A DNA stretch of 64,000 nt from assembly GCF_036194065.1 (NCBI RefSeq), contig NZ_CP108095.1, forward strand, positions 3,534,001 to 3,598,000, in the 5' to 3' direction. The stretch comes from Streptomyces sp. NBC_00239. Its GTDB lineage: Bacteria > Actinomycetota > Actinomycetes > Streptomycetales > Streptomycetaceae. Made by a program: the position numbers and the translations under genes. Of the stretch, positions 23,102 to 42,055 are shown one piece after another. The notes beneath the pieces are model-generated. The model saw only the letters and a program-made list of their open reading frames with translations. It had not been told where the DNA came from and did no database searches. Every line of letters begins with the position of its first letter. The stretch's first letter is position 1.

Positions 23102-23965
23102 TTACGGGTGACGGCCCGCCATCTCTTCGAGCCGGGCGATCCGCTCGGCCATCGGCGGGTGGGTCGAGAACATCCGGGAGAGTCCCTGTCCGGGGCGGAA
23201 GGGGTTCGCGATCATGAGGTGGCTCGCGGTTTCCAGCCGTGGTTCGGGGGGCAGCGGGAGCGCTTTGGTGCCCGCGTCGAGCTTGCGCAGGGCGCTGGCC
23301 AGGGCGAGCGGGTCGCCGGTGAGCTGGGCTCCGGAGGCGTCCGCCTCGTACTCCCGGGAGCGGCTGACGGCCAGCTGGATGATCGAGGCGGCCACCGGGC
23401 CCAGGATCATGATCAGGAGCATGCCGAGGAGGCCGGGGCCCTCGTCGTCGCTGGACCGCCCGACCGGGATCAGCCAGGCGAAGTTGACCAGGAACATGAC
23501 CACCGAGGCGAGGGCGCCGGCGACCGAGGAGATGAGGATGTCCCGGTTGTAGACGTGGCTCAGCTCGTGGCCGATGACGCCGCGCAGTTCGCGTTCGTCG
23601 AGGATGCGCAGGATGCCGTCGGTGCAGCAGACGGCGGCGTTGCGCGGATTGCGACCGGTGGCGAAGGCGTTCGGCGCCTCCGTCGGGGAGATGTAGAGGC
23701 GGGGCATGGGCTGGCGCGCGGACGTCGAGAGCTCGCGCACCATGCGGTAGAGCTCGGGGGCCTCGAACTCGCTGACCGGGCGGGCCCGCATGGCGCGCAG
23801 GGCCAGCTTGTCGCTGTTCCAGTAGGCGTACGCAGTCGTCCCGAGCGCCACGACGAGCGCGACGATCAGGCCTCCGCGCCCGAAGAAGCTTCCGATGAAG
23901 ATGATGAGTGCGGACAGACCGCCGAGGAGTACGGCGGTCTTCAGCCCGTTGTGCCGGCGGTGCAC
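23102..23965 (-). CDS. htpX: Membrane zinc metalloprotease HtpX
   Basis: Membrane-bound M48 peptidase involved in quality control of membrane proteins under stress. The GTG at 23965 has GGAGGG seven bases upstream and gives 287 residues. Two N-terminal membrane helices are followed by the catalytic HELSH motif (residues 133-137) and a second pair of hydrophobic segments. The third zinc ligand is in [10 protein letters not shown], and the end [17 protein letters not shown] is typical. A long imperfect inverted repeat (23985-24002 with 24056-24073) lies upstream, between it and the nuo2 operon. It may terminate that operon or control htpX. Confidence 0.95.
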
Positions 23966-24147: not shown

Positions 24148-25719
24148 CTACTGCGGGAACAGGCTGCCGTCGGCGAAGCGGAGCACCAGCTGCGGGGCGC
24201 CGGACAGGACCACGGCCACGGCGGCCGTGAGGCCGATCGCGACGGTGACCGGCAGCGGCACCGCCGGGCGGACGGCGGGAACGGGACCGGCGGGAGCGGA
24301 AGCGGCGGGAACCGGTGCGGCTTCGCCGGCCCCGTCCTCCTGCGGGGCGCGGAAGAGCACGGCCGTCCACTGGAGGTAGTAGTAGAGGGCCATGACGACG
24401 TTCACGGCCATGACCACGGCGAGCCAGCCCAGCCCGGCGTCGACGGCGGAGCGGAAGACGGCGACCTTGGCGAACAGGCCGACGATGCCGGGCGGCAGGC
24501 CGGCCAGGCAGAGCAGGAAGAAGGCCAGCGACAGGGCCGCGAACGGGCTGCGGTGGTAGAGCCCGCGGTAGTCGGCGATCCGGTTGAGCGGGGCGCTGCG
24601 GGCGACGAGGGCGGCGACGGCGAACGCGCCGAGGTTCACGGCCGCGTACATGAGCGCGTACGCGACGGTCGCGCCGATCTGGTCGCGGCCGGAGTACGCG
24701 GCGGCGGCGATCGGCACCAGCAGGTAGCCGGCCTGGCCGACCGAGGACCAGGCGAGCAGCCGTACGGCGCTGTGCTCGCGGCCGGGTGCCTGGCGCAGGG
24801 CCGCGGCGTTGCCGAGGGTCATCGTCAGGGCCGCGATGACCGCCAGCGCGGGGCCCCAGATGTCGGAGTACGCGGGGAAGGCGAGCACCGTGACGAGGAT
24901 CAGGCCGGTGAAGCCGACGGCCTTGCCGATCACCGACAGGTACGCGGCGATGGGCAGCGGCGCTCCGACGTAGGTGTCCGGCACCCAGAAGTGGAAGGGG
25001 ACGGCGGCCGTCTTGAAGGCGAAGCCGACGAGGGTCAGGGCGACGCCCGCCATGGCGAGGGTGTCGAGCTGCCCGGGCACCTCCTCCAGGCCGTCCGCGA
25101 TGCGGTTCAGGTACAGGCTGCCGGTGGCGGCGTAGACGAAGCTGACGCCGAGCAGCGAGACGGCCGTGGCGGTGACGGAGGACAGGAAGAACTTGAGGGC
25201 CGCCTCGGAGGACATCCGGTCGCCGCGGCGCATGCCGACGAGGGCGAACGCGGGCAGCGAGGCGACTTCGAGGGCCACGACGAGGGTGGCGAGGTCGCGG
25301 GCGGCGGCCAGCAGGCCGGCGCCGGCGGTCGCCGAGAGCAGCAGGAACCAGAACTCGCCGGCGGGCAGCTCGCCGTCGCGGGCCGCGGACACGGACAGCA
25401 GGGCGGTCAGCAGTGCGCCCGCGAGCACCAGGAACTGGATGACCAGCGCGAAGTGGTCGGCGGCGTAGCTGCAGGCGGCCGGGTCGGTGGTCAGGCAGAA
25501 GGTGGTGCGGTCGCCCGCCCGCAGGGGCAGCAGGGCGAGGGTCGCGGCGGCGAGGCCGGCGATGGAGATCCAGCCGAGGAGGTGCTTGTTCCGGTCGGGC
25601 AGGAACAGGTCGGCGACCAGCACGAGGAGGCCGACGACGGCGGCGGTCAGCGGCGGGGCGATGGCCGTCCAGTCGACGGACTGGACCAGGTCGGCGGCCA
25701 GGGGGAGCTGGGCCGTCAT
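24148..25719 (-). CDS. nuoN2: Complex I-like subunit N, second copy
   Basis: Antiporter-like membrane subunit of 523 residues, last gene of the second complex I operon. The key charged residues of the proton channel are kept: the helix 5 glutamate in [10 protein letters not shown] and the helix 7 lysine in [17 protein letters not shown], plus the [18 protein letters not shown] segment. The ATG at 25719 overlaps the nuoM2 stop (ATGA). An Ala/Pro-rich cytoplasmic loop lies near residues 465-490. It differs clearly from the housekeeping NuoN at 56.7-58.4 kb and is not a recent duplicate. Confidence 0.93.
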
Positions 25720-27329
25720 GAGTTGCCTCCTGCGAGGAGCTTCTGGACGGCCGGGTCGGTGAGGCCGAGGAGGACCGCGGGCCACAGGCCGGCGAGGACG
25801 GTGAGGGCGACGAGCGGGGTCCAGGCGGCGAATTCGTAGCCGTGGACGTCGGCGAGGGGCGCCGGCAGGTCGTCCGGCTTCGCCTCGGGGTGGGCTTCGG
25901 GGTCGGCCGCGAGGTGCTCGCCCATGCAGACCCGGCGGACGACGACGAGGAGGTACGCGGCGGTCAGCAGGGTGCCGATGCCGCCGATCACCATGTACGT
26001 CAGGAACGCGGGCCGGCTGAGGCCGTCGGCCGGGTCGAACGCGCCGAACAGGGCGAGCATCTCGCCCCAGAACCCGGCGAGGCCGGGCAGTCCGAGGGAG
26101 GCGACGGCGGCGAACGCGAGCAGGGCGCCGAGACGGGGGGCGCGGCCGTAGAGGGCGGCGCCGGTGGCCCCGGCGAGGGTGTCGAGGTCGCTGGTGCCGT
26201 AGCGGTCCTTGAGCGCGCCGACCAGGAAGAAGAGGAGGCCGGTGATCAGGCCGTGGCCGATGTTGGCGAACAGCGCGCCGTTGACGCCGGTGGGGGTCAT
26301 CGTCGCGATGCCGAGCAGTACGAAGCCCATGTGGCCGACGGACGAGTACGCGATGAGGCGCTTGAGGTCGCCCTTGGCGCCCTTGCGGGCCAGCGCGAGG
26401 CAGGCCAGGGACCCGTAGACGATCCCGACCGCGGCGAAGGCGCCGAGGTAGGGGGCGAAGGTGTGCATGCCGTCGGGGGTGACGGGCAGCAGGATCCGCA
26501 CGAACCCGTACGTGCCCATCTTGAGGAGCACGCCGGCGAGGAGGACCGAGCCGACGGTCGGGGCGGCGGTGTGGGCCGCGGGGAGCCAGCTGTGCAGGGG
26601 CCACATCGGGGTCTTGACGGCGAGTCCGATGCCGATGGCGAGGACCGCCAGGACCTGGGTGCTGTGGCTCAGTCCGCGGCCGTTGTCGGTGGCGAGTGCC
26701 ACCATGTCGAACGTGCCCGCGCTCAGGCCGATGAGCAGCAGGCCGAGCAGCATGACCACGGAGCCGAGCAGCGTGTAGAGGATGAACTTCCAGGCGGCGG
26801 CGCGCCGCTGGTCACCGCCCCAGCGGGCGATGAGGAAGTACATCGGGATGAGGACCATCTCGAAGGCGAGGAAGAAGAGCAGCAGGTCGAGGACGGCGAA
26901 GGTCGCGAGGGTGCCGGACTCCAGGACCAGGAGCAGCGCGACGAAGGCCTTGGGGGACGGGCCTGCGGGGAGCTTGAAGTAGCTGTAGAGCGCGCAGAGG
27001 AAGAACAGCAGCGCGGTCATCAGGAGGAGGGGGAGCGAGATGCCGTCGATGCCGAGGTGGATCCGGACGTTCAGCGCCTGGATCCAGCTGATGTCCGTCG
27101 TCGCCTGGAAGCGGGACGGGGCGTCGTGGTCGAAGCCGAGGGCCAGGACCACCGCGGCGGCGAGGATCGCGCCGGTGACGGTGACGCCGTGGCGCAGGAC
27201 GGCCTGCTCGGGGCCACGGCCCTTGAGTCCGGGCGGGGCCGGGAGGAGGGCCGCGGCGGCGCCGAGCAGAGGGGCCGCCACGATGAACGCCAGAAGGAAC
27301 TGCATCACGGATGCGCTGATATCAATCAC
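25716..27329 (-). CDS. nuoM2: Complex I-like subunit M, second copy
   Basis: Antiporter-like subunit of 537 residues. The chosen GTG at 27329 starts [15 protein letters not shown]. An alternative GTG at 27347 would overlap the nuoL2 stop and add six residues. Proton-channel residues are conserved: Glu in [15 protein letters not shown], Lys in [19 protein letters not shown] and the Lys of VLLKMGTYG. It lies between nuoL2 and nuoN2, overlapping the latter by four bases. Confidence 0.92.
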
Positions 27330-27343
27330 GGCTGACTCACGGC

Positions 27344-29233
27344 TCACGATCCGGCGTTGACGTTGGCAAGGACGGCGGCGGCGACCGCGAGGACCACGGA
27401 ACCCGCGAGCAGGGCGCTCAGGTAGGTCTGCACGTTGCCGGTCTGGGACCGGCGGACGAGGGTGCCGAGCAGCCGGGGTCCGGCGCCGGCGCCGCGTACG
27501 TACGTGTCGACGACCTCGCGGTCGAGGAAGCGGACGAGTGTCGCGGCGGCCTCTACGGGGCGTACGAACAGCGCGGCGTAGACGGCGTCGAGGTGGAATC
27601 CGGCGGCCGCGTGGGGGTGGAGCGGTCCGAGCAGGGCGCGGCCGGGGTCGGGGGCGGTGGTCGCGAGGGCGGCGGCGCGCTGCCACATGCCGTACGTGAG
27701 CACCGCTCCGAGTACCGCGGCGCCCGTGCCGAGCACGGAGGTGAGCAGGGTCGGGCTCAGCTCGTGGCCGTCGAACCAGTCGGGGAGCAGCCCGGCGGTG
27801 AGGCCGAAGCCGACGGTCGGCACGGCGAGCAGCCACAGCACGCCGGTCATGGCGAAGGGCTGGCGGCCGTGGTCGGGGGCCTGTTCGCCGCGGCCGCGGA
27901 AGGCCAGCAGCCACAGGCGGGTGGCGTAGGCGGCGGTCAGCAGGGCGGTGAGGACGCCGGCGACGAGGACGGTCCAGCCGGCCGCCGAGGGGGCGATGTC
28001 CGAGTGGCCGACGGCCGTCTGCTCGGCGGCGACGAGGACGGCTTCCTTGGAGAAGAAGCCGGCGAAGGGCGGCAGGGCGGCGAGGGCGAGCAGCGCGATC
28101 GTCATCGTCCAGAAGACGTCGGGGACGCGCTTGGCCAGGCCGTCCATGCGGGACATGGCGGCCAGGGAGTTCGTCCCCGCGGCGTGGATGATCACGCCGG
28201 CGCCGAGGAAGAGCAGCGCCTTGAAGAAGCCGTGGGACAGGAGGTGGAAGACGGCGGCGCCGCGGTCGCCGACGGCCAGCGCGCCGGTCATGTAGCCGAG
28301 CTGGCCGACCGTGGAGTAGGCGAGGACGCGCTTGATGTCGTCCTGGGCGAGGGCGGCCAGCGCCGAACCGACCATCGTCACGGCCGCCATGACGGCCATG
28401 ACCACGAGTGCGGCCTGGGAGGCCGCGAAGACCGGGAGGAGGCGGGCGATGAAGTAGACGCCGGCGGCGACCATCGTCGCGGCGTGGATCAGCGCGGAGA
28501 CCGGGGTGGGGCCCGCCATGGCGTCCGGGAGCCAGGTGTGCAGCGGGAACTGCGCGGACTTGCCCGCGACGCCGGCCAGCAGCAGGAGGGCGATCAGGGT
28601 CGGGTGGTCGAGGCCGCCCGAGGCCACGGCGCCCAGGATCTTGGTGATCTGGAAGGAGCCGGCGTCCACGGCGAGCGCGAACATGCCGAAGAGGAAGGGC
28701 ACGTCGCCGAGCTTGGTGACCAGGAAGGCCTTGAGGGAGGCGGCGCGGGCCGCCTCGGTCTCCCAGTAGTGGCCGACCAGGAAGTACGAGCAGATGCCCA
28801 TGATCTCCCAGCCGACCAGCAGCACCATCAGGTCGCCGGAGTAGACGACGAGCAGCATGGCGGCGGTGAAGAGGGACACCAGGGCCGCGTACGAGGAGTA
28901 GCGCGGGTCCTCGCGGAGGTACGCCGTGGAGTACAGCTGGACGCAGGTGGCGACGATGCCGACGAGGACCGCCACGAGGACGGCGAAGCCGTCGAGGTGG
29001 AGGGAGAGCTCGATCGGCACCGAGCCGGTCGGGGTCAGCTCGGTCGCGGCGTCGATCGCCTTGCCGCCGCCTTGGCGGGCGGCGACGAGGACGGCCAGGA
29101 CTGCGGCCGCCAGGGTGGGCAGCACGGCGAGCGGGCGCACGTAGCCGGGGGCCTTGCGGCCGAGCAGCAGTCCGGTCACCGCGCCCAGGAACGGCAGGAC
29201 GGGGACGAGGACGGCGAGGGTCGTGGTGGTCAC
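27344..29233 (-). CDS. nuoL2: Complex I-like subunit L, second copy
   Basis: Largest antiporter-like subunit, 629 residues, with the long C-terminal lateral helix region expected of NuoL. Conserved sites are [19 protein letters not shown] (helix 5 Glu), [32 protein letters not shown] (helix 7 Lys) and [13 protein letters not shown]. The GTG at 29233 overlaps the nuoK2 stop (GTGA). The proton-pumping machinery looks intact although the complex lacks its NADH module genes. Confidence 0.94.
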
Positions 29234-29610
29234 GCGGCGGCTCCGGTGGCGCGGTCGACCTCGCCGACGGGCTGGGCGGTCTCGGTGGTCGGGGCGGGCT
29301 CGTGGCTCTCGGCGGTGTCGCGCAGCCGGTCGATGTCGGCGGTGCCGCGGTTGCGGTACACCATCAGCACGATCGCCATGCCGATGCCGATTTCGGCGGC
29401 GGCGATGGCGATGGTGAAGAGGGTGAGGGCCTGGCCGGCGTGCAGGGTGTCGCGGAGCCAGACGTCGAAGGCCACCAGGTTGAGGTTGACGGCGTTGAGC
29501 ATCAGCTCGACGGACATCAGCACCAGGATGGCGTTGCGGCGGGCGAGCACTCCGTAGAGGCCGGTGCAGAAGAGGAGGGCCGCGAGGACGGCGGGGTAGG
29601 CGAGGTGCAT
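29230..29610 (-). CDS. nuoK2: Complex I-like subunit K, second copy
   Basis: Small three-helix membrane subunit, 126 residues, about 25 longer than the housekeeping NuoK because of a hydrophilic C-terminal tail. Both membrane glutamates needed for proton transfer are present ([12 protein letters not shown] and [11 protein letters not shown]). The ATG at 29610 shares one base with the nuoJ2 stop (TGATG), and the end overlaps nuoL2 by four bases. Confidence 0.95.
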
Positions 29611-30188
29611 CAGCGCTGCTCCTTACCGGAGCCGTCGGTGGCCGGGCTCTTGCGGGACAGGACGATCGCGCCGACGAGCGCCGCCAACAGCAGGACGCTC
29701 AGCGCCTCGAAGGGCAGGACCCAGTGGCGGAACAGGATCTCGCCGGTGACCTTGGTGCTGCCCTGGGCGGGCCCGTCGAGGTCGATCCAGGTGGTGCGGA
29801 AGGCGTCGACGACCACCCAGACGAGCGCGCCCGCGGCGGGCAGGGCCACGGCGAGGGCGGCCGGGCGGTTGCCCGAGTCGGCGTCCGGGGACCGGCCGAT
29901 GGGCGCCTTGGTGAGCATCAGGCCGAAGAGGAGGAGGACGACCACGGAACCGACGTAGATCAGTACCTGGACCCAGGCGATGAACTCCGCGGTCAGGAGG
30001 ACGTACTCGACGGCGATGCCGCCGAGGGCCATGACCAGCCAGAGGGCCGCGTGGACCAGCTGCTTGGTGGTGACGGTGACCAGGGCGGCGCCGAGGGTGG
30101 CGATGCCGACGAGGACGAAGGCGATCTCGACACCGGTCGGGGAGAGGAAACCGGGGCCGGCGGTGGCGGCGAGGGTGAACGCGCTCAT
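29610..30188 (-). CDS. nuoJ2: Complex I-like subunit J, second copy
   Basis: Membrane subunit of 192 residues with five predicted helices. The helix 3 region [23 protein letters not shown] is typical of NuoJ, where a pi-bulge acts in coupling. It starts [17 protein letters not shown] at 30188, overlapping the nuoI2 stop by four bases (ATGA). The hydrophilic C-terminus is much shorter than in the housekeeping copy (273 residues). Confidence 0.93.
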
Positions 30189-30919
30189 CGGTCGGCACCT
30201 CCCTCCGGGGCGGAGCCGGACGGGCTCTCGGGCGGGCTCGCGGGCGGGGTCTCGGCTTGGGGCTCGGCCGGGGTCGCGGCCCGGGTGGTCCCGGGTGAGG
30301 CCTCCGGCCGGGATCCCGGCTGGGCTTCCCGCTGGGCTTCCGGCCGGGCTTCCGGCCGGGCTTCCGGCTGGACTGCTGCCGCGGCGGCCGCGGCCGCGGC
30401 GGCGGCCTCCAGCTTCTCGGCGGTCTTGCGGGCGGCTGCGATCTCCTTGGGCTCCTCGGCGGCCGGGTCGAGGGCGGGCGGCGCCGGGACCGTCCACATC
30501 CACTCGCGCAGCTTGTCGCGCTCGTGGGTGAGTTCGAGGATGTCCGTCTCCGCGTACTCGAACTCCGGCGACCAGAAGAGGGCGTCGAAGGGACACACCT
30601 CGATGCAGATGCCGCAGTACATGCAGAGGGAGAAGTCGATGGCGAACCGGTCGAGGACGTTGCGGCTGCGCTCGCGGCCGCCGGGTGCGGCCGCCGGCAC
30701 CGTCTCCTTGTGGGAGTCGATGTAGATGCACCAGTCGGGGCACTCGCGCGCGCACAGCATGCAGACCGTGCAGTTCTCCTCGAACAGTCCGATGACGCCG
30801 CGGCTGCGCGGCGGCAGTTCGGGCTGGACGTCGGGGTACTGGGCGGTGTGCGACCTCTTGGTCATCGTCCGCAGCGTGACGGCGAGGCCCTTGGCCAGGC
30901 CGGATCCGGGGATGGGCAT
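30185..30919 (-). CDS. nuoI2: Complex I-like 2[4Fe-4S] subunit I with long disordered tail, second copy
   Basis: Peripheral-arm iron-sulfur subunit of 244 residues. Both ferredoxin motifs are complete: Cys50, 53, 56, 60 and Cys99, 102, 105, 109, so clusters N6a and N6b can form. After about residue 150 an unusual tail begins. It holds a run of alanines and repeated PEARPEA-type units rich in Pro, Glu, Arg and Ala, and is much longer than in the housekeeping NuoI. The ATG at 30919 shares a base with the nuoH2 stop (TAATG). Confidence 0.93.
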
Positions 30920-31887
30920 TATCCGATCGCCACCTTCACGATGCCGGTGAGCGCGATCTGAGCGAGCGCGAGCGGGATGAGTGTGGTCCAGGCGAGCTTC
31001 TGGAGCTGGTCCTCGCGCAGGCGGGGGTAGGTCACCCGCAGCCAGATCACGCCGAAGGCGAGGATCGCGACCTTCAGGAGGGTCCAGACCCAGCCGAGGC
31101 CGTCGCCGCCGAAGGGGCCGTGCCAACCGCCGAGGAACAGGACGGTGGTCAGGCCGCAGAGGATGACGATGCCGGCGTACTCGGCGAGCAGGAACAGCGC
31201 GAAGCGCAGGCCGGTGTACTCGGTGTACGCGCCGAAGATGATCTCCGAGTCGGCGACCGGCATGTCGAAGGGCGGACGCTGGAGTTCGGCGAGGCCCGCG
31301 GTGAAGAAGACCAGGGCGCCGACGATCTGCCAGGGCAGCCACCACCATTCGAACGCCTCGACGATGCCGGGGAGGGACACGGTCCCGGCGGCCATGGCGA
31401 CGGAGGCGGCGGCGAGCAGCATGGGCAGCTCGTACGCGAGCAGCTGGGCGGCCGTGCGCAGGCCGCCGAGCAGGGAGAACTTGTTGGCGGAGGCCCAGCC
31501 GGCCATGAGGCTGCCGAGGACTCCGACGCCCATCACGGCGAGCGCGAAGAACACGCCCGCGTCGACGACCTCGCCGACGGCGCCCTCGCCGGGGCCGATC
31601 GGGATGACGAGGAGGACCAGGAGGTAGGGCAGCAGCGCGACGGCGGGCGCGAGCTGGAAGATCCGCCGGTCGGCGTTGGCCGGGACGATGTCTTCCTTCT
31701 GCGCGAACTTCACGCCGTCGGCGACGAGCTGGGCCCAGCCGTGGAAGCCGCCTGCGTACATGGGGCCGAGGCGGCCCTGCATGTGGGCCATGACCTTGTG
31801 TTCGGTCTGCCCGATGACGAGGGGCAGCACAAGGAAGACCACGAAGACGACGATGAGTCGCAGCGCGACGTCGAGGACGTCGTTCAC
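30919..31887 (-). CDS. nuoH2: Complex I-like quinone-chamber subunit H, second copy
   Basis: Membrane subunit of 322 residues that normally forms the quinone-access chamber with NuoB and NuoD. Family segments are [53 protein letters not shown], and [34 protein letters not shown]. The glutamates of the conserved coupling loops are kept. The GTG at 31887 overlaps the nuoC2 stop. A D subunit, which should complete the chamber, is not encoded nearby. Confidence 0.95.
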
Positions 31888-33464
31888 GCGGTGCCTCCGG
31901 TGTCGGGTTCGGGGTGGGGGTCGGTGCCGGTGCCGGTGTCCGAGTCGGTGCCGGTGTCCGAGTCGGTGCCGGTGTCCGAGTCGGCGTCCGCCGGGGCCGC
32001 CGGGGCCGCCTTCGGGCGGCGGGGCGCGGAGGTCTCGGGGGCGGCTGCCGCCTCGTCCTGTCCGGGCGCGGGCTCGGTCTCGGCGGGCGAGGCCGGTTCG
32101 ACGGCGGGCTCGGCCTCGGGCTCCGCCGCGGGCGCGGCGGGCGAGGCGGTTTCGGCGGCGGGCGCCGCCGGGGCCGGTCGTTCCGCGGCCGGGGCCGCTT
32201 CGGCCGCCGGGGGCGGGGCCGGTTCGGTGGCCTCGGCCGGGGTGGGGGCGTCGTAGGCGGGGCGGGCGTGGTGCCAGGGGGCGTCCGCGCTGCGGGGAGC
32301 CGGGCGGGCGGGCTGCGCGGCCGGAGCCGGGGCGGCCTGGCTGGCCGAGCCGTCCGCGGCCGAGCGGCTGCGCCGCGGCGGACGGGCCGCGGGCGTCGCC
32401 GGGGCCCCCGCCGCGTCCGGGGTCGTCGGAACGGACGGAGCCGCTTCCGTCGACGGGCCGGATTCCGTGCCCGGGGCGGATTCCGTGGCCGGGCCGGATT
32501 CCGTGGCCGCGGCGGATTCCGTGGCTGCGGCGGATTCCGTGGCCGGGGCCGCCTGGCTGGCGGAGCCGTCCGCGGTGGTGCGGGAACGGCGCGCGGGAGC
32601 GCCCTCGGCCGTGGTGGTGCCTTCGGCCGCGGTGGCGCCGGGCGTGCCTTCGGCGGCTGCGGCGCGCGGGGTGCGGCGGGGCGGGGTGCCCTCGGCGGCG
32701 GCCGCGCGCGGGGTACGGGCGGGGGCGCCCTCGGCGGCCGGGGCGCCCTCGGCGGCCGGGGCGCCCTCGGCGGCCGGGGCGCCCTCGGCGGCCGGGGCGC
32801 CCTCGGCGGCGGCGCGCGGGGTACGGCGGGCCGGGGCGTCGCCCGCGGCGCGCGGGGTGCGGGCCGGGCGGGCCGGGGCCGGCGGGAGCTGGCCCTTCAT
32901 CGGACCCCAGTCGTTGGGGTCCGGGACGCCCGGCGGCAGCATCTGGCGGCGCTTCGGGCCGCCGTGGTCCGCGCCCTCGCCCGGCTCCTTCGCGCCCGGC
33001 CACGCCTTGGCCACGCGCGCCGCGAGGACGAAGTCCTTGCGCAGCGGGTGCCCTTCGAAGTTCTCGGGGAGCAGCAGCGGGACCAGGTTCGGGTGGTCGG
33101 TGAAGGTGACGCCGAACATCTCGTACGTCTCGCGCTCGTGCCAGGCCGCGCCCGCGTAGACGGGGATGGCGGTCGGCAGCGAGGGGGCGGAGTGCGGGAC
33201 GGTCGTACGGAGCAGCAGGCGGCGGACGCGGCCGCCTTCCAGGGCGGCGACGTGCGCGCACACCCGGAAGCCGGTGCCCGGTTCGTCGACCGCGCTCAGC
33301 CAGTCGAAGTAGGTGCAGCCCAGCTTGTCGCGGGCGATTTCGAGCGCGGCGATCCAGCTGCCGACGGGCACGTCGACGGTCAGCAGGTCGTAGGCGGACT
33401 CGGCGGTCGCCTCGACTCCGAAGATCTCGGTGACGTTGCCGGGGAGTTCGTCGTACTGGTTCAC
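31884..33464 (-). CDS. nuoC2: Complex I-like subunit C with a ~330-residue low-complexity tail, second copy
   Basis: A 526-residue protein. Residues 1 to about 155 are a NuoC (30 kDa) domain with the signature [13 protein letters not shown] (109-121) and GHPLRKDF (138-145). The rest, from about residue 195, is Ala/Pro/Glu/Thr-rich low complexity. It holds five near-identical AAEGAP units (18-bp DNA period near 32724-32813), ATES units and a C-terminal DSDTGT triple repeat. Normal NuoC proteins have about 200-250 residues. The GTG at 33464 overlaps the nuoB2 stop. The tail is in frame and ends in an overlap with nuoH2, so it is part of the translated product. Confidence 0.9.
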
Positions 33465-34171
33465 GGCCGGTTCTCCCCCGGGGTGTCGCCGGCGGACGGC
33501 GCCTGGTCGTCGTCGGCGGACGGCGCGGCTTCGGCGGCCGCCGCGGACGGCTCTGCCGAACCGGCGGACCCGGCCGGTGCAGCCGACCCTGCAGAGCCGC
33601 CCGGCGGGGGCGGCGGGGTGACCAGGCCGCTGGTCAGGGCGGCGACGGAAGGAGTTGCCGAGCTGTAGCGCTCTTCGAGCGACTCTCGGGCGATCTTCTC
33701 CTGGAGCTTGAGAATTCCCTGGAGCAGGGCCTCCGGGCGGGGCGGGCAGCCGGGTACGTAGACGTCGACCGGAATGATCTGGTCCACGCCCTTCGTGACG
33801 GAATACGAGTCCCAGTACGGGCCGCCGCAGTTGGAGCAGGCGCCGAAGGAAATCACGTATTTCGGCTCGGGCATCTGCTCGTAGAGCCGCTTCACGGCGG
33901 GTGCCATCTTGTCCGTGACCGTGCCGGACACGATCATCAGGTCGGCCTGCCGGGGACCGGGCGCGAACGGGATCACGCCGAGGCGGATGAAGTCGTGCCG
34001 GGCCATGGAAGCCGCGATGAACTCGATCGCGCAGCAGGCGAGCCCGAAGTTGAAGACCCACAGGCTGTAGCGGCGGCCCCAGTTGAGGACCACTTTCATC
34101 GGCTCCGGGGCGAGGCGGGAGAGCACTCCCAGCCTCTTGGGCTCGGGCAGCAGTTCCGGTGTCACGTCCAT
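33461..34171 (-). CDS. nuoB2: Complex I-like [4Fe-4S] N2 subunit B, second copy
   Basis: Peripheral-arm subunit of 236 residues carrying the terminal cluster N2. All ligands are visible: the Cys46-Cys47 pair in [10 protein letters not shown], Cys112 in GACSNCGG and Cys142 in [11 protein letters not shown]. Residues after about 180 form a Pro/Ser/Ala/Gly-rich tail. The ATG at 34171 lies inside the end of nuoA2 (10-base overlap). With intact N2 the complex should be able to reduce quinone if a NuoD partner is supplied. Confidence 0.95.
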
Positions 34172-34572
34172 TCGAGGACGCCCTTCTTCCATGCGTAGAG
34201 CAGGCCGACGGCCAGGAAGCCCAGGAAGATGAACATCTCCACCAGGGTCGTGGCGCCGTATCCGGCGGCGGCGAACACGGTCGCCCACGGGAACAGGAAG
34301 ATCGAGTCCACGGCGAAGATGACGTAGAGGAACGCGTAGACGTAGTAGCGGACCTGGGTGTGCGCCCAGCCCTCGCCGACGGGGTCCACACCGCATTCGT
34401 ACGTCAGCAGCTTCTCGGGGGTCGGCACCATCGGCCGCAGCAGCCGGCCGGCGCCGAACGCCACGGCGACGAAGAGCACGCCGATCACGGCGAGTACGCC
34501 GACGACCGAATAGCTCCGGAAATATTCGGCTGCGAGCACCGTCACGGTCGAAACCGTCGGGTCGTCCGGCAC
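34162..34572 (-). CDS. nuoA2: Complex I-like subunit A, second copy
   Basis: First gene of the nuo2 operon: a 136-residue, three-helix membrane subunit. The conserved loop [12 protein letters not shown] and the [12 protein letters not shown] segment with its membrane Asp are present. The GTG at 34572 has GAGGAG seven bases before it. The gene is divergent from a sensor kinase gene, with 145 bases between the start codons, containing a probable -10 and a GGGG/CCCC palindrome. Confidence 0.94.
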
Positions 34573-34717: not shown

Positions 34718-35917
34718 ATGACCGCGACCATCCTCGTCCCCGACGACTCCCGCAGCGACGACCGGCTGCCGCCCGTACGACCCGTGTTCGCCGCGGCGAC
34801 GGTGCGCGAGATGACGTACCTCTTGACCAACCTTCCAATGACGATCATCGGATTTGTTTACGTAGTTGTCATGATTGGCGTCGCGGGCGCGCTGTCCGTG
34901 ACCGCAGTCGGTCTGCCCCTGCTCGCATTCGGTCTGCTCGGGTCACGGCAGCTGGGCAAGCTCGAACGGGCGCGGGCCCGCGTACTGCTCGGCGTCCGCG
35001 TCGACGAGCCGACGCCTATCCCGGCGCGCGGGGGTTTCGCGGGCCTCCTCCCCTGGCTGTGGACGAGCCTGAAGGACCCGGTGGCCTGGCGGACCGTGCT
35101 GTACGACGCGATCCGGCTGCCCTGGGGCGTGCTCTGCTTCGCGGTGGTGACCTGCGGGGTGTTCGTCGCCTGGCCGGTGCTGCCGTACGTGATGCGGGGG
35201 ATGACGCAGCTGGACCGGGCGATGGTGCGCGGGCTGCTCTCGCCGTCGGACGAGCTGGAACGGCGCATCGCGGAGCTGGAGTCGGACCGGGGCGTGGTCG
35301 TGGACACCGCCGCCGCCGACCTGCGCCGCATCGAACGCGACCTGCACGACGGCGCGCAGGCCCGGCTGGTCGCACTCGCGATGGGGCTGGGCATGGCCAA
35401 GGAGAAGCTGCTGGAGGACCCGGACGCGGCGGCGCGGATGGTCGACGAGGCGCACGGCGAGGTGAAGATCGCCCTCCAGGAGCTGCGCGACCTGGCCCGC
35501 GGCATCCACCCGGCCGTGCTCACCGACCGCGGACTGGACGCCGCGCTGTCCGCGGTGGCCTCGCGGTGCACGGTGCCGGGCGGGGTGCGCGTCTCGGTGG
35601 ACCTGCCGGCGCGGCCGGCGGAGGCGATCGAGGGGATCGCGTACTTCACCGTCTCCGAGCTGCTCCAGAACATCAGCAAGCACGCGCGGGCCGGCACCGC
35701 GAGCGTCGAGGTGTGGCGGGCCGGGCCGCGGGTGCTGATCAGGGTGTCGGACGACGGGCGCGGGGGCGCGCGGACGGACCGCGGGTCCGGGCTGGCCGGC
35801 CTCGCGGAACGGCTGGGTGCGGTGGACGGCGTCTTCTTCGTCGACTCTCCCGAGGGCGGCGGCACCGTGGTCACGGCGGAGCTGCCGTGGCGCGACCGCC
35901 CTGCGGTGCGCGCCTGA
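34718..35917 (+). CDS. Sensor histidine kinase, NarL-type (first of a tandem pair)
   Basis: Membrane two-component kinase of 399 residues. An N-terminal putative sensor domain has four hydrophobic segments (about 30-175), close to the Streptomyces sensor-domain family. It is followed by a HisKA_3 dimerisation helix with the phosphorylated His210 in ERDLHDGAQARL. A HATPase domain follows with N box LLQNISKHA and G boxes DDGRGG and GSGLAGLAERLGAV. The ATG at 34718 is divergent from nuoA2. Its catalytic half is nearly identical at DNA level to the second kinase, with 101 bases (35273-35373) matching exactly. The signal is unknown. Confidence 0.92.
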   Translation: MTATILVPDDSRSDDRLPPVRPVFAAATVREMTYLLTNLPMTIIGFVYVVVMIGVAGALSVTAVGLPLLAFGLLGSRQLGKLERARARVLLGVRVDEPTPIPARGGFAGLLPWLWTSLKDPVAWRTVLYDAIRLPWGVLCFAVVTCGVFVAWPVLPYVMRGMTQLDRAMVRGLLSPSDELERRIAELESDRGVVVDTAAADLRRIERDLHDGAQARLVALAMGLGMAKEKLLEDPDAAARMVDEAHGEVKIALQELRDLARGIHPAVLTDRGLDAALSAVASRCTVPGGVRVSVDLPARPAEAIEGIAYFTVSELLQNISKHARAGTASVEVWRAGPRVLIRVSDDGRGGARTDRGSGLAGLAERLGAVDGVFFVDSPEGGGTVVTAELPWRDRPAVRA

Positions 35918-36488: not shown

Positions 36489-37799
36489 ATGGACAGCAAC
36501 AAGGGCGGGGCCCTCCACCGGCTCCCCGCGGCGCTCCGCGCCCCGGTCGAGGCACGGACCTGGCGGGAGTTCGGGCACCTGATGCTCGGCCTGCCACTGA
36601 GCGTCGTGTACTTCTCGCTCGCGATCGTCGCGCTCAGCGCCGGAGCGGGGCTGCTGGTCACCTTCCTGGGGATCCCGGTGCTCGCCGCGGGGCTGGCGAT
36701 GTGCCGCGGGTTCGGGTCGGTCGAGCGGGCCCGGGCGCGGGCGCTGCTGCGGACCGAGGTGGAGCCGCCGGAGCCGGTGCGGGCCCGCAAGGGCGGTGCG
36801 TTCGGCTGGATGGGCGCGATGCTCAAGAGCGGCGCCTCGTGGCGGCACATGCTCTACGCGGTGATCCACTTCCCGTGGGCGGTGTTCACGTTCACGGTCG
36901 CCCTGGTCTTCATGGTCTACGGCTGGGCGCTGCTGTTGTACCCGCTCTGGCACTGGGTGTTCCCGACCTTCACGGACCAGCCGGGACTCCAGCTGTTCCA
37001 GAACGGCGACTACAGCTTCTACCTCGACTCCCCCGCCCGGATCGCCCTGACCTCGTTGATCGGCCTGGGGTTCACCCTGGTCACGCCGTGGCTGGTACGC
37101 GGCTTCGCGGGGGTGGACCGGGCGCTGATCCGCGGGCTGCTCGGGCCGTCCCGGCTGGCGACCCGTGTGACCGAGCTGGAGTCGGACCGGGGCGTGGTCG
37201 TGGACACCGCCGCCGCCGACCTGCGCCGCATCGAACGCGACCTGCACGACGGCGCGCAGGCCCGGCTGGTCGCCCTCGCCATGGACCTGGGCCTGGCGAA
37301 GGAGAAGCTCGCGGAGGACCCGCAGGCCGCGGCGCGGATGGTCGACGAGGCGCACGGCGAGGTGAAGATCGCCCTCCAGGAGCTGCGCGACCTGGCCCGC
37401 GGCATCCACCCGGCCGTTCTGACCGACCGCGGACTGGACGCCGCGCTGTCCGCGGTGGCGTCCCGGTGCACGGTGCCGGGCGGGGTGCGCGTCTCGGTGG
37501 ACCTGCCGGTGCGGCCCGCTCCGGCGATCGAGGGGATCGCGTACTTCACCGTCTCCGAGCTGCTCCAGAACATCAGCAAGCACGCGCGGGCCCGCACCGC
37601 GAGCATCGAGGTGTGGCGGGCGGCCGACCGGCTGCTGATCCAGGTCGCCGACGACGGGCGCGGGGGTGCGGCGGCCGGGGCGGGCAGCGGGCTGTCGGGG
37701 CTGGCGGAGCGGATCGGCGCGGTGGACGGGGTGCTGGTGGTGGAGTCGCCTGAGGCCGGCGGCACCCGGGTGACCGCCGAGCTCCCCTGGCGCGGCTGA
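36489..37799 (+). CDS. Sensor histidine kinase, NarL-type (second of a tandem pair)
   Basis: Membrane kinase of 436 residues with the same layout as its upstream neighbour. It has a sensor domain with four membrane segments (about 30-215) and a larger extracytoplasmic loop including NGDYSFYLDSPARI. A HisKA_3 helix follows with His253 in ERDLHDGAQ, then an ATPase domain with LLQNISKHA, DDGRGG and GSGLSGLAERIGAV. The kinase halves of the two proteins are almost identical while the sensor halves differ. Both may therefore phosphorylate the same response regulator in answer to different signals. The ATG at 36489 has GGACGGGCGGA upstream. Confidence 0.92.
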   Translation: MDSNKGGALHRLPAALRAPVEARTWREFGHLMLGLPLSVVYFSLAIVALSAGAGLLVTFLGIPVLAAGLAMCRGFGSVERARARALLRTEVEPPEPVRARKGGAFGWMGAMLKSGASWRHMLYAVIHFPWAVFTFTVALVFMVYGWALLLYPLWHWVFPTFTDQPGLQLFQNGDYSFYLDSPARIALTSLIGLGFTLVTPWLVRGFAGVDRALIRGLLGPSRLATRVTELESDRGVVVDTAAADLRRIERDLHDGAQARLVALAMDLGLAKEKLAEDPQAAARMVDEAHGEVKIALQELRDLARGIHPAVLTDRGLDAALSAVASRCTVPGGVRVSVDLPVRPAPAIEGIAYFTVSELLQNISKHARARTASIEVWRAADRLLIQVADDGRGGAAAGAGSGLSGLAERIGAVDGVLVVESPEAGGTRVTAELPWRG

Positions 37800-38162: not shown

Positions 38163-38834
38163 GTGGACGACAGGGTGCGGGTGGTCATCGCCGAAGATTC
38201 GGTGCTGCTCCGTGATGGCCTGACCCGGCTGCTGACCGACCGGGGGCACGACGTCGTCGCCGGCGTCGGCGATGCCGACGCGCTGATCAAGACGATCGAC
38301 GGGCTGGCCGCGGACGGCGCGCTGCCGGACGTGGTGGTGGCCGATGTCCGGATGCCCCCCACGCACACCGACGAGGGGGTGCGGGCAGCGGTGCGGCTGC
38401 GCGCCACGCACCCCGGCATAGGCGTGCTCGTGCTGTCGCAGTACGTGGAGGAGCAGTACGCCACCGAGCTGCTGGCAGGGTCCAGCACCGGGGTGGGCTA
38501 CCTCCTCAAGGACCGGGTGGCCGACGTGCGCGAGTTCGTCGACGCCGTGGTCCGCGTGGCGCGGGGCGGCACGGCGCTCGACCCGGAGGTCGTGGCCCAG
38601 CTGCTGGGCCGCAGCCGCAAGCAGGACGTACTCGCGGGTCTGACCCCCCGCGAGCGCGAGGTGCTGGGCCTGATGGCCGAGGGCCGTACGAATTCCGCGG
38701 TCGCGAAGCAGCTGGTCGTGAGCGACGGAGCGGTCGAGAAGCACGTGAGCAACATCTTCATGAAGCTCGGCCTGTCGCCCAGTGACGGGGATCACCGGCG
38801 TGTGCTGGCCGTGCTCACCTATCTGAATTCCTAG
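38163..38834 (+). CDS. Response regulator, NarL/LuxR family
   Basis: DNA-binding response regulator of 223 residues. The receiver domain has the acidic pair Glu11-Asp12, the phosphorylation site Asp61 in VVADVRMP, Ser92 and Lys116 in GYLLKDR. The C-terminal LuxR-type helix-turn-helix starts at LTPREREVLGLMAEGRTNSAVAKQL (about residue 155). The start is a GTG at 38163 with a weak ribosome-binding site. It follows the two kinases on the same strand and precedes korA, so it is the natural partner of both kinases and a candidate regulator of nuo2 and korAB. Confidence 0.94.
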   Translation: MDDRVRVVIAEDSVLLRDGLTRLLTDRGHDVVAGVGDADALIKTIDGLAADGALPDVVVADVRMPPTHTDEGVRAAVRLRATHPGIGVLVLSQYVEEQYATELLAGSSTGVGYLLKDRVADVREFVDAVVRVARGGTALDPEVVAQLLGRSRKQDVLAGLTPREREVLGLMAEGRTNSAVAKQLVVSDGAVEKHVSNIFMKLGLSPSDGDHRRVLAVLTYLNS

Positions 38835-39039: not shown

Positions 39040-40983
39040 GTGACCAGCCAGGTCAGTAGCCCGGCCGAGCAGGCCGGCGGGGCAGCAGGGGCTGTCGTCG
39101 GCGAGCAGCGGACGCCCGCGGCCTCCGGCGAGAAGGAAGTCCGCCGCCTCGACCGCGTGATCATCCGTTTCGCGGGTGACTCCGGTGACGGCATGCAGCT
39201 CACCGGTGACCGCTTCACCTCGGAGACCGCGTCGTTCGGGAACGACCTCTCGACGCTGCCGAACTTCCCCGCCGAGATCCGTGCGCCCGCCGGCACGCTG
39301 CCGGGCGTTTCCTCCTTCCAGCTGCACTTCGCCGACCACGACATCCTCACTCCGGGTGACGCCCCGAACGTGCTGGTCGCCATGAACCCGGCCGCGCTGA
39401 AGGCGAACATCGCCGACGTGCCGCGCGGCGCGGAGATCATCGTCAACACCGACGAGTTCACCAAGCGGCCGATGGCCAAGGTGGGCTACGAGACCTCCCC
39501 GCTGGAAGACGGCTCGCTGGAGGCGTACAACGTCCACCCGGTGCCGCTGACCACGCTGACGGTCGAGGCCCTGAAGGACTTCGGGCTGTCCCGCAAGGAG
39601 GCCGAGCGCAGCAAGAACATGTTCGCGCTGGGCCTGCTCAGCTGGATGTACCACCGGCCGACCGAGGGCACCGAGAAGTTCCTGCGGGCGAAGTTCGCGA
39701 AGAAGCCCGAGATCGCCGAGGCGAACGTCGCGGCCTTCCGCGCGGGCTGGAACTTCGGCGAGACCACCGAGGACTTCGCGGTCTCGTACGAGGTCGCCCC
39801 CGCGACCAAGGCGTTCCCCACCGGCACGTACCGCAACATCTCCGGGAACCTGGCCCTGTCCTACGGCCTGATCGCGGCCGGCCGTCAGGCCGACCTGCCG
39901 CTCTACCTGGGCTCCTACCCGATCACCCCGGCCTCGGACATCCTGCACGAGCTGTCGAAGCACAAGAACTTCGGCGTGCGCACCTTCCAGGCCGAGGACG
40001 AGATCGCGGGCATCGGCGCGGCGCTCGGCGCCGCCTTCGGCGGCTCCCTCGCGGTGACCACCACCTCCGGCCCCGGCGTGGCGCTGAAGTCGGAGGCCAT
40101 CGGCCTGGCGGTCTCCCTGGAGCTGCCGCTGCTGATCGTGGACATCCAGCGCGGCGGCCCGTCCACCGGTCTGCCGACCAAGACAGAGCAGGCCGACCTG
40201 CTGCAGGCCATGTACGGGCGCAACGGCGAGGCCCCGGTCCCGGTGGTCGCCCCGAAGACGCCCGGCGACTGCTTCGACGCGGCGCTGGACGCGGCCCGGA
40301 TCGCGCTGACCTACCGGACGCCGGTCTTCCTGCTGTCCGACGGCTACCTCGCCAACGGCTCCGAGCCGTGGCGGATCCCGGACCTGGACGACCTGCCCGA
40401 CCTGCGGGTCCAGTTCGCGACCGGCCCGAACCACGAGCTCGCGGACGGCACCGAGGTCTTCTGGCCGTACAAGCGGGACCCGCAGACCCTGGCCCGCCCC
40501 TGGGCGGTGCCGGGCACTCCGGGCCTGGAGCACCGGATCGGCGGCATCGAGAAGCAGGACGGCACGGGCAACATCTCCTACGACCCGGCCAACCACGAGT
40601 TCATGGTCCGCACCCGGCAGGCCAAGATCGACGGCATCGACGTCCCGGACGTCGAGGTCGACGACCCCGACAACGCCCGGACCCTGGTCATCGGCTGGGG
40701 CTCCACGTACGGCCCGATCACGGCGGCCGTGCGCCGGCTGCGGCTCGCCGGGGCCCCCATCGCGCAGGCCCACCTGCGCCACCTCAACCCGTTCCCCCGG
40801 AATCTGGGCGAGGTCCTGAAGCGTTACGACAAGGTAGTGGTTCCGGAGATGAACCTCGGCCAGCTCGCCACCCTGATCAGGGCGAAGTACCTGGTCGACG
40901 CGCAGTCGTACAACCAGGTCAACGGAATGCCGTTCAAGGCGGAGCAGCTCGCGACGGTTCTCAAGGAGGCCATCGATGTCTGA
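39040..40983 (+). CDS. korA: 2-oxoacid:ferredoxin oxidoreductase, alpha subunit (fused gamma-alpha)
   Basis: Large subunit of the enzyme that oxidatively decarboxylates 2-oxoglutarate to succinyl-CoA and passes electrons to ferredoxin. The GTG at 39040 has a perfect AAGGAGG and gives 647 residues. The N-terminal gamma domain (about 40-230) contains RFAGDSGDGMQLTGDRF. The alpha domain follows with GSYPITPASDILHELSKH and the EDEIAG glutamate that contacts thiamine diphosphate. No ferredoxin domain is fused. It overlaps korB by eight bases. The actinobacterial KorAB is the closest known type. Confidence 0.95.
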   Translation: MTSQVSSPAEQAGGAAGAVVGEQRTPAASGEKEVRRLDRVIIRFAGDSGDGMQLTGDRFTSETASFGNDLSTLPNFPAEIRAPAGTLPGVSSFQLHFADHDILTPGDAPNVLVAMNPAALKANIADVPRGAEIIVNTDEFTKRPMAKVGYETSPLEDGSLEAYNVHPVPLTTLTVEALKDFGLSRKEAERSKNMFALGLLSWMYHRPTEGTEKFLRAKFAKKPEIAEANVAAFRAGWNFGETTEDFAVSYEVAPATKAFPTGTYRNISGNLALSYGLIAAGRQADLPLYLGSYPITPASDILHELSKHKNFGVRTFQAEDEIAGIGAALGAAFGGSLAVTTTSGPGVALKSEAIGLAVSLELPLLIVDIQRGGPSTGLPTKTEQADLLQAMYGRNGEAPVPVVAPKTPGDCFDAALDAARIALTYRTPVFLLSDGYLANGSEPWRIPDLDDLPDLRVQFATGPNHELADGTEVFWPYKRDPQTLARPWAVPGTPGLEHRIGGIEKQDGTGNISYDPANHEFMVRTRQAKIDGIDVPDVEVDDPDNARTLVIGWGSTYGPITAAVRRLRLAGAPIAQAHLRHLNPFPRNLGEVLKRYDKVVVPEMNLGQLATLIRAKYLVDAQSYNQVNGMPFKAEQLATVLKEAIDV

Positions 40984-42055
40984 GACGACGGCGGAACCCG
41001 CCTCCCACCACTCCCTGCTCTCCCTCGTGCCCAAGGCCGAGGCCAAGCAGTCGATGAAGGACTTCAAGTCCGACCAGGAAGTCCGCTGGTGCCCGGGCTG
41101 CGGCGACTACGCGGTGCTCGCCGCGGTCCAGGGCTTCATGCCCGAGCTGGGCCTGGCGAAGGAGAACATCGTCTTCGTCTCGGGCATCGGCTGCTCGTCG
41201 CGTTTCCCGTACTACATGAACACGTACGGGATGCACTCGATCCACGGCCGCGCCCCGGCCATCGCGACGGGCCTCGCGTCCTCGCGCCGGGACCTGAGCG
41301 TGTGGGTGGTCACCGGTGACGGCGACGCGCTGTCCATCGGCGGCAACCACCTGATCCACGCCCTGCGCCGGAACGTCAACCTCAAGATCCTGCTGTTCAA
41401 CAACCGGATCTACGGTCTGACCAAGGGCCAGTACTCGCCGACCTCCGAGGTCGGCAAGCTCACCAAGTCCTCCCCGATGGGCTCGCTGGACGCGCCCTTC
41501 AACCCGGTGTCCCTCGCGATCGGCGCCGAGGCCTCCTTCGTGGCCCGGACCGTGGACTCCGACCGCAAGCACCTCACCGAGGTGCTGCGCGCCGCCGCCG
41601 ACCACAACGGCACGGCGCTGGTCGAGATCTACCAGAACTGCAACATCTTCAACGACGGCGCGTTCGAGGTCCTCAAGGACAACGAGCAGGCGCAGGAGGC
41701 CGTGATCCGGCTGGAGCACGGGCAGCCGATCCGCTTCGGCGTGGACCTGCACAAGGGTGTGGTGCGGGACCCGGCCACCGGCGACCTCCAGGTCGTCGAG
41801 GTGACCCCGGAGAACGAGTCGCGGATCCTGGTCCACGACGCGCACACGGCCAGCCCGACCACCGCGTTCGCCTTGTCCCGGCTGGCCGACCCGGACACCC
41901 TGCACCACACGCCGATCGGTGTGTTCCGCAGCGTGGAGCGGGCCGTCTACGACACGCAGATGTCGGACCAGCTGGACACCGCCATCGAGCAGAACGGCAA
42001 GGGCGACCTGAGCCGGCTCCTCACCGGCAACGACACGTGGACGGTCGTCGGCTGA
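40976..42055 (+). CDS. korB: 2-oxoacid:ferredoxin oxidoreductase, beta subunit
   Basis: Thiamine diphosphate and iron-sulfur subunit, 359 residues. Cys39 and Cys42 (WCPGCGDY), Cys73 (GIGCSSR) and Cys222 (YQNCNIF) match the four ligands of the single [4Fe-4S] cluster. The cofactor motif GDGDALSIGGN lies at 114-124, ending in the expected Asn in LFNNRIYG. There is no separate delta (ferredoxin) subunit, so a free ferredoxin must take the electrons. It overlaps korA by eight bases (ATGTCTGA) and ends at a bidirectional hairpin. Confidence 0.96.
   Translation: MSETTAEPASHHSLLSLVPKAEAKQSMKDFKSDQEVRWCPGCGDYAVLAAVQGFMPELGLAKENIVFVSGIGCSSRFPYYMNTYGMHSIHGRAPAIATGLASSRRDLSVWVVTGDGDALSIGGNHLIHALRRNVNLKILLFNNRIYGLTKGQYSPTSEVGKLTKSSPMGSLDAPFNPVSLAIGAEASFVARTVDSDRKHLTEVLRAAADHNGTALVEIYQNCNIFNDGAFEVLKDNEQAQEAVIRLEHGQPIRFGVDLHKGVVRDPATGDLQVVEVTPENESRILVHDAHTASPTTAFALSRLADPDTLHHTPIGVFRSVERAVYDTQMSDQLDTAIEQNGKGDLSRLLTGNDTWTVVG

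Follow-up and report, generated by a model that had tools for sequence, protein, structure and literature searches.

The 64,000-nucleotide stretch of the soil bacterium Streptomyces sp. NBC_00239 analysed here (the window; contig NZ_CP108095.1, positions 3,534,001 to 3,598,000) carries a second operon for respiratory complex I, nuo2, at positions 24148-34572. Together with an unlinked nuoD2 gene, nuo2 probably encodes a complete 11-subunit complex I that lacks NuoE, NuoF and NuoG and is fed by ferredoxin. The operon and the detached nuoD2 are already known. In the proposed enzyme, reduced ferredoxin would give electrons to NuoI2, from whose iron-sulfur clusters N6a and N6b they would pass to cluster N2 in NuoB2, and menaquinone would be reduced at the B2-D2-H2 site, driving proton pumping. 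At the sequence level, every Q- and P-module subunit is encoded, and I2 and B2 have intact iron-sulfur ligands.

The ten open reading frames of nuo2 lie on the minus strand in the order A2-B2-C2-H2-I2-J2-K2-L2-M2-N2, and each matches the expected Pfam family (Table 1). An earlier note on this DNA, made from the letters alone, had described such a gap-free series, and the gene junctions indeed overlap by 1-10 nucleotides; the overlap between L2 and M2 depends on the start of M2, being 4 nucleotides with GTG 27347 and none with 27308, the start picked by gene calling (the codon at 27350 encodes Ile). Again as that note had it, sequence and alignment contain the Cys ligands expected in B2 and I2, as well as the Glu/Lys motifs of K2, L2, M2 and N2, at positions that we take to be the functionally important ones. 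NuoI2 has 49 residues ahead of its first Cys. NuoA2 has the motif FAVD where NuoA of the housekeeping operon (nuo1) has FDIE, and FAVD also occurs in three other A2 proteins caught by pattern. NuoC2 ends in a repetitive, Pro/Ala-rich tail of ~350 residues without a Pfam match (window 31884-32960), whose DNA repeats at 18-nucleotide spacing. At most other loci C2 has no such tail, and it looks lineage-specific because C2 in other gene-called full loci has only 173-247 amino acids where called. A NuoCD fusion, suspected from the length of C2, was ruled out by the composition of the extra sequence and its lack of a Pfam match.

No match to PF00346 (NuoD) was found within the nuo2 operon, nor any NuoE or NuoG, second copies of which were not searched for genome-wide. 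The absence of D, E, F and G noted earlier thus holds for the operon; as to D it does not hold for the genome. A genome search with PF00346 returned exactly two NuoDs, that of nuo1 and a 382-amino-acid NuoD2 (240 bits) encoded 187 kb past the window end, ~216 kb from nuo2. The 11-subunit set of NuoA-D and NuoH-N is therefore complete, ten in the operon plus nuoD2, although a nuoD outside the operon is unlike the usual (not essential) arrangement of 11-subunit complex I. The aligned N-terminal part of NuoD2 contains the complex I motifs GPQHPSTHG and RHDWL. None of the Cys pairs that bind NiFe in [NiFe] hydrogenases was found in NuoD2, which has three Cys and no CxxC pair. None of 40 nuoD2 neighbourhoods tested had nuoD2 beside nuo2. 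At one locus (L076, genome G028), unlike at other D2 loci, nuoD2 adjoins antiporter genes that resemble L2 (41%) and M2 (29%), with H2 on another contig.

The distribution of NuoD2 was examined in 296 genomes of the class, in which NuoD2 was found in at least 117, NuoH2 in 72 and two or more NuoB in 119; these NuoD2 tallies cover the matches listed, and divergent second NuoDs may be undercounted (G003, G023, G076, G124, G144, G217). Among the matches listed for the 267 good-quality genomes (≥90% complete, ≤5% contaminated), NuoD2 was present in all 60 NuoH2 carriers, and two or more NuoB occurred in 97 of 101 NuoD2 genomes vs 4 of 166 without NuoD2. These and the other co-occurrence counts treat genomes as independent, and kinship makes them overstate the evidence. 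Across all 296 genomes NuoD2 accompanied NuoH2 in 70 of 72, the exceptions (G014, G108) being 72% and 80% complete. At the level of sequence, these data show NuoD2 to be a dedicated NuoD paralogue.

Genome G128 (100% complete) is informative here. Its single NuoB, NuoD and NuoH are all of nuo2 type; it has the ten-gene nuo2 operon and a separate nuoD2, which is its only NuoD among the matches listed, and it has no nuo1 and no NuoF match. The earlier note had proposed that nuo2 shares the housekeeping NuoD, given an operon without nuoD and nuo1 nearby. With a separate nuoD2 in hand (a second nuoD elsewhere being what that note had itself named as contrary evidence), with NuoD2 in every good-quality NuoH2 genome among the matches listed, and with G128 lacking a nuo1-type NuoD, we consider this sharing very improbable. 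The accessible parts of two papers (PMC9239103, PMC3765725) propose hybrid complexes, in which nuo2 subunits (L2, M2 or others) would be swapped into the nuo1 complex. Such hybrids are favoured by the presence of two full sets per cell and by expression that shifts in opposite directions in a gbn mutant (PMC9239103, part accessible); however, nuoD2 completes the nuo2 set, which stands alone in G128, and B2, D2 and A2 depart from their nuo1 counterparts at positions of the interface and the quinone site, so that we regard hybrids as unlikely.

The only NuoF above the TIGR01959 cut-off in the NBC_00239 genome is that of nuo1. Since G128 also has a full nuo2 without NuoF, a donor other than NADH (reduced nicotinamide adenine dinucleotide), which the earlier note had reasonably inferred, is supported. 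A candidate source of electrons lies nearby: korA, encoding a probable 2-oxoglutarate:ferredoxin oxidoreductase subunit, is 4.9 kb from nuoB2, across a set of sensor and regulator genes. Among the korA matches listed, to which all korA counts and distances refer, korA and B2, when a single contig carried both, lay within 10 kb in 24 of 25 Streptomyces genomes (divergent in 25/25) and in 45 of 46 others (opposite strands in 45/46; ≤500 bp apart in 24). From sequence and gene neighbourhood, ferredoxin is the likely general donor of the nuo2 complex with KorAB as one supplier, and in the present genome ferredoxin would probably be reduced by the neighbouring KorAB from 2-oxoglutarate. The physiological electron acceptor of KorAB in Mycobacterium tuberculosis was reported as unidentified (PMC2773412, part accessible). 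The family of M. tuberculosis appears to lack nuo2; where nuo2 exists, the I2-B2 chain is a candidate acceptor.

A second gene tracks nuoD2. A PF02636 methyltransferase (E=1.5e-11, 44.7 bits vs a cut-off of 23.3) is encoded outside the window, ~4 kb from nuoD2 (L007:1794-2729), and a PF02636 gene lay at most ~7 kb from nuoD2 in 35 of 40 fetched neighbourhoods, often adjacent. Among the NuoD matches listed for the good-quality set, it was present in 90 of 101 NuoD2 genomes vs 2 of 166 others (G069, G078). In mitochondria NuoD corresponds to NDUFS2, and NDUFAF7/MidA, of the same PF02636 family, dimethylates its Arg85 (PMC3829151); a conserved arginine is reported to be critical for N2 stability (PMC8042128; both papers accessible in part). 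The position of NDUFS2 Arg85, in an HRG motif, was Arg in all 70 NuoD2 loci (68 genomes, G043 and G241 each counted twice) and Thr in all 21 NuoD1 proteins (our own plus 20 fetched ones, of which 8 come from D2-negative genomes). The predicted target is therefore confined to that NuoD paralogue with which the enzyme co-occurs. The enzyme may act as an assembly factor that methylates this Arg of NuoD2. With two complex I enzymes, one using NADH and the other apparently ferredoxin, and a methyltransferase that tracks one NuoD paralogue, these bacteria offer a clean system for the role of Arg85 methylation.

Several observations weigh against parts of this interpretation. The PF02636 gene was not found in 11 of the 101 NuoD2 genomes, which are complete; the methyltransferase has no NCBIfam model match and differs from NDUFAF7/MidA in that it resembles the NDUFAF7 structure (5ztz) weakly (E=0.0012), its methylation activity being putative. 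A ferredoxin gene was not identified. Among the matches listed, 8 of 79 genomes carried B2 and korA on separate contigs, and in G095 a distance of 1.56 Mb lay between the two genes. korA was present in at least 228 of the 296 genomes, and in all 25 NuoD2-negative genomes measured it lay 10-32 kb from nuoH1; the proximity of korAB is therefore partly an inherited neighbourhood and weaker as independent evidence. No PF01558 oxidoreductase was found in G128 or G246, both with a full nuo2, and KorAB as an obligatory or universal donor is ruled out by these two genomes and by the distant or split-contig korA genes. Finally, all 70 NuoD2 loci have Trp where NuoD1 has a Tyr that we take to be at the quinone site, judging from the Thermus sequence and our own NuoD1; the presumed quinone-site His is kept in 69 of 70. 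In Yarrowia the quinone-site Tyr is called conserved (PMC8119997, part accessible). Because of the Trp, quinone reduction by the nuo2 complex is not assured.

Relatives without a membrane arm bear on the same question. NuoH2 (no match at E ≤ 1e-30) was absent from 41 of the 101 good-quality NuoD2 genomes, among the NuoD matches listed. The B2 locus was inspected in 32 of these 41, and B2, C2 and I2 stood in a row in 27; for loci of ~3.4 kb, which make up part of the set, absence of the membrane arm is deduced from the missing H2. Of the remaining five loci, those of G016 and G229 run into the end of a contig; in G161, I2 follows at a distance of 4 kb; in G070, A2 is the last gene before the contig ends; and G030 retains short remnants of A2 and H2. 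In 9 of the 31 genomes searched for these ~3.4-kb loci there was a nuo1-type locus only or no fetched B2 locus, G190 having no second NuoB. The G030 locus (L083) has shortened A2 (80 amino acids) and H2 (123 amino acids), no J-N, and intact B2, C2 and I2; it looks like a membrane arm in the process of loss.

We compared 32 stripped loci (the inspected ones plus the less complete G042 and G060, leaving out G030 and G070) with full operons. Pattern matching or visual inspection showed all four N2 ligands of B2 in 31 of the 32 (L136 included), those of L142 being visible in the alignment only, and both four-Cys motifs of I2 were kept in all 30 found, two lying beyond contig ends. Identity to our own B2 (8 full, 30 stripped) was 0.98 in full vs 0.35 in stripped forms for the N-terminal helix and 0.94 vs 0.22 for the loop 55-78, and it was 0.95 vs 0.82 around the last ligand. 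Likewise, identity to our own D2 (16 full non-Streptomyces, 22 stripped) was 0.84 vs 0.33 for the loop 127-147 and 0.99 vs 0.97 for RHDWL. The first Cys of I2 is preceded by 13-32 residues in 29 of 30 stripped forms (50 in G161), whereas each of the 8 full ones has 49 or more. The degenerate B2, D2 and I2 segments are presumably those that face the membrane arm and the quinone in complex I structures. In stripped genomes korA and B2 were divergent in 22 of 22, and ≤500 bp apart in 17, among the matches listed.

In a D2 tree of 57 rows that takes D1 as its reference, two changes are required to account for the stripped D2s, and two are forced by the starred branches, with long branches among the stripped forms and G052 grouping weakly with the root. 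G016 and G161 are nested in full Streptosporangiaceae beside G087 (99% like Microbispora siamensis); among other stripped forms, G079 is a 100% match to Motilibacter deserti, and the G211 query was best at 85-87% to Friedmanniella/Microlunatus. This sequence-based tree suggests that the stripped form arose from the full complex at least twice. The stripped relatives can be arranged in order, from a membrane pump down to a Q-module alone.

Docking of the stripped module on the nuo1 membrane arm was considered because the stripped genomes carry nuo1 and because the block is close to the end of nuo1 in L085-L088; we judge it less likely because the I2 N-terminal extension is lost and the B2 helix and loop are degenerate. 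By analogy with the membrane-bound sulfane reductase, ferredoxin electrons might reach an acceptor other than quinone at the D2/B2 site, with the membrane arm still coupled. The Tyr to Trp change in every NuoD2 locus and the repeated loss of the membrane arm while the N2 ligands stay would fit such an enzyme. However, full-operon genomes keep the His, the D2 and B2 loops (at the identities given above) and NuoH2, and we hold a non-quinone acceptor to be improbable. A further reading, tentative and one that we lean against, is that the core of the system is a KorAB-coupled NuoBCDI electron-transfer unit and not a proton pump. At least two lineages would then have shed the membrane arm, and what remains would be a soluble enzyme, independent of quinone, in which N6a, N6b, N2 and the Arg85-type Arg are retained and I2 replaces the ferredoxin-like delta subunit found in 2-oxoacid oxidoreductases. 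If true, complex I would here have evolved in reverse, into a soluble redox enzyme that could supply the electron acceptor of actinobacterial KorAB.

The 11-subunit, ferredoxin-fed complex that we favour has known counterparts. Desulfitobacterium hafniense has an 11-subunit complex I, nuoABCDHIJKLMN, with ferredoxin or another donor presumed (PMC11238625, part accessible). The nuo2 system has the same 11 subunits and no NADH module, but differs in its unlinked nuoD2, the Trp of D2 in place of the quinone-site Tyr, the adjacent korAB genes, and its presence in aerobic actinomycetes that have a 14-subunit enzyme as well. Complex I of Campylobacter and Helicobacter is reportedly fed by flavodoxin from a 2-oxoglutarate oxidoreductase (Weerakoon and Olson, 2008). 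There too a 2-oxoacid oxidoreductase feeds a complex I without NuoE and NuoF, whereas NuoD is in the operon, the carrier is a flavodoxin, and there is no NuoD/NuoB paralogue pair. Unlike the 14-subunit NADH complex I, the nuo2 operon has no NuoE, F or G, and the genome has no second NuoF above the TIGR01959 cut-off. In Streptomyces, nuo2 is known as SCO4599-SCO4608, to which we assign the present locus by synteny, and a separate nuoD2 was noted in S. coelicolor and relatives (PMC3765725) and in S. ambofaciens (PMC8388888). The operon is transcribed as a single unit (PMC3765725), its products were detected in proteomes (PMC9739823), and its function was called unclear (PMC9239103). In their accessible parts, the printed accounts (PMC3765725, PMC8388888, PMC9239103) give no donor, describe nuo2 without nuoC2, and are silent on the methyltransferase link and the stripped forms. 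Neither the link between methyltransferase and nuoD2, nor the Arg/Thr and Trp/Tyr split between the paralogues, nor the stripped B2-C2-D2-I2 form was found in the open-access literature searched.

Table 1 Features of the nuo2 region (positions in the window)
Feature	Position	Strand	Remarks
M48-family peptidase gene	23102..23965	-	directly downstream of nuoN2; PF01435 E=1.9e-35
nuoN2	24148..25719	-	523 aa; PF00361 E=1.5e-51
nuoM2	25716..27347	-	start GTG 27347 or 27308; PF00361; TIGR01972 above cut-off
nuoL2	27344..29233	-	629 aa; PF00361/PF00662; TIGR01974 above cut-off
nuoK2	29230..29610	-	126 aa; PF00420 E=2.7e-28
nuoJ2	29610..30188	-	192 aa; PF00499 E=1.7e-35
nuoI2	30185..30919	-	244 aa; two CxxCxxCxxxCP motifs; Fer4 families, NuoI models
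nuoH2	30919..31887	-	322 aa; PF00146 E=3.4e-99
nuoC2	31884..33464	-	526 aa; PF00329 E=1.2e-31; NuoC domain and Pro/Ala-rich tail
nuoB2	33461..34171	-	236 aa; PF01058 E=8.6e-29; four N2-cluster Cys in alignment
nuoA2	34162..34572	-	136 aa; PF00507 E=1.1e-32
probable sensor kinase (abrC1 position)	34718..35917	+	divergent from nuoA2; open reading frame and position; name by synteny with SCO4598 (PMC9739823, part accessible)
sensor kinase (abrC2 position)	36489..37799	+	PF13796, HisKA_3, HATPase_c; name by synteny
LuxR-type response regulator (abrC3 position)	38163..38834	+	Response_reg, GerE; name by synteny
korA, 2-oxoacid:acceptor oxidoreductase alpha	39040..40983	+	TIGR03710 665 bits, above cut-off; PF01558/PF01855/PF17147
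korB, 2-oxoacid:acceptor oxidoreductase beta	40976..42055	+	PF02775; TIGR02177 245.6 bits, slightly below cut-off 261.9

Among the flanking genes, short korA- and korB-like pieces stand beside B2 at one locus (L133, genome G194) where its neighbours carry whole genes, a possible remnant. The M48 peptidase on the other side of nuo2 might serve as a protease in quality control of the complex. In 11 of 20 fetched loci the same place, after either nuo2 or the stripped block, is occupied by a gene cluster (cl1) that would, from its position and size, correspond to this peptidase.

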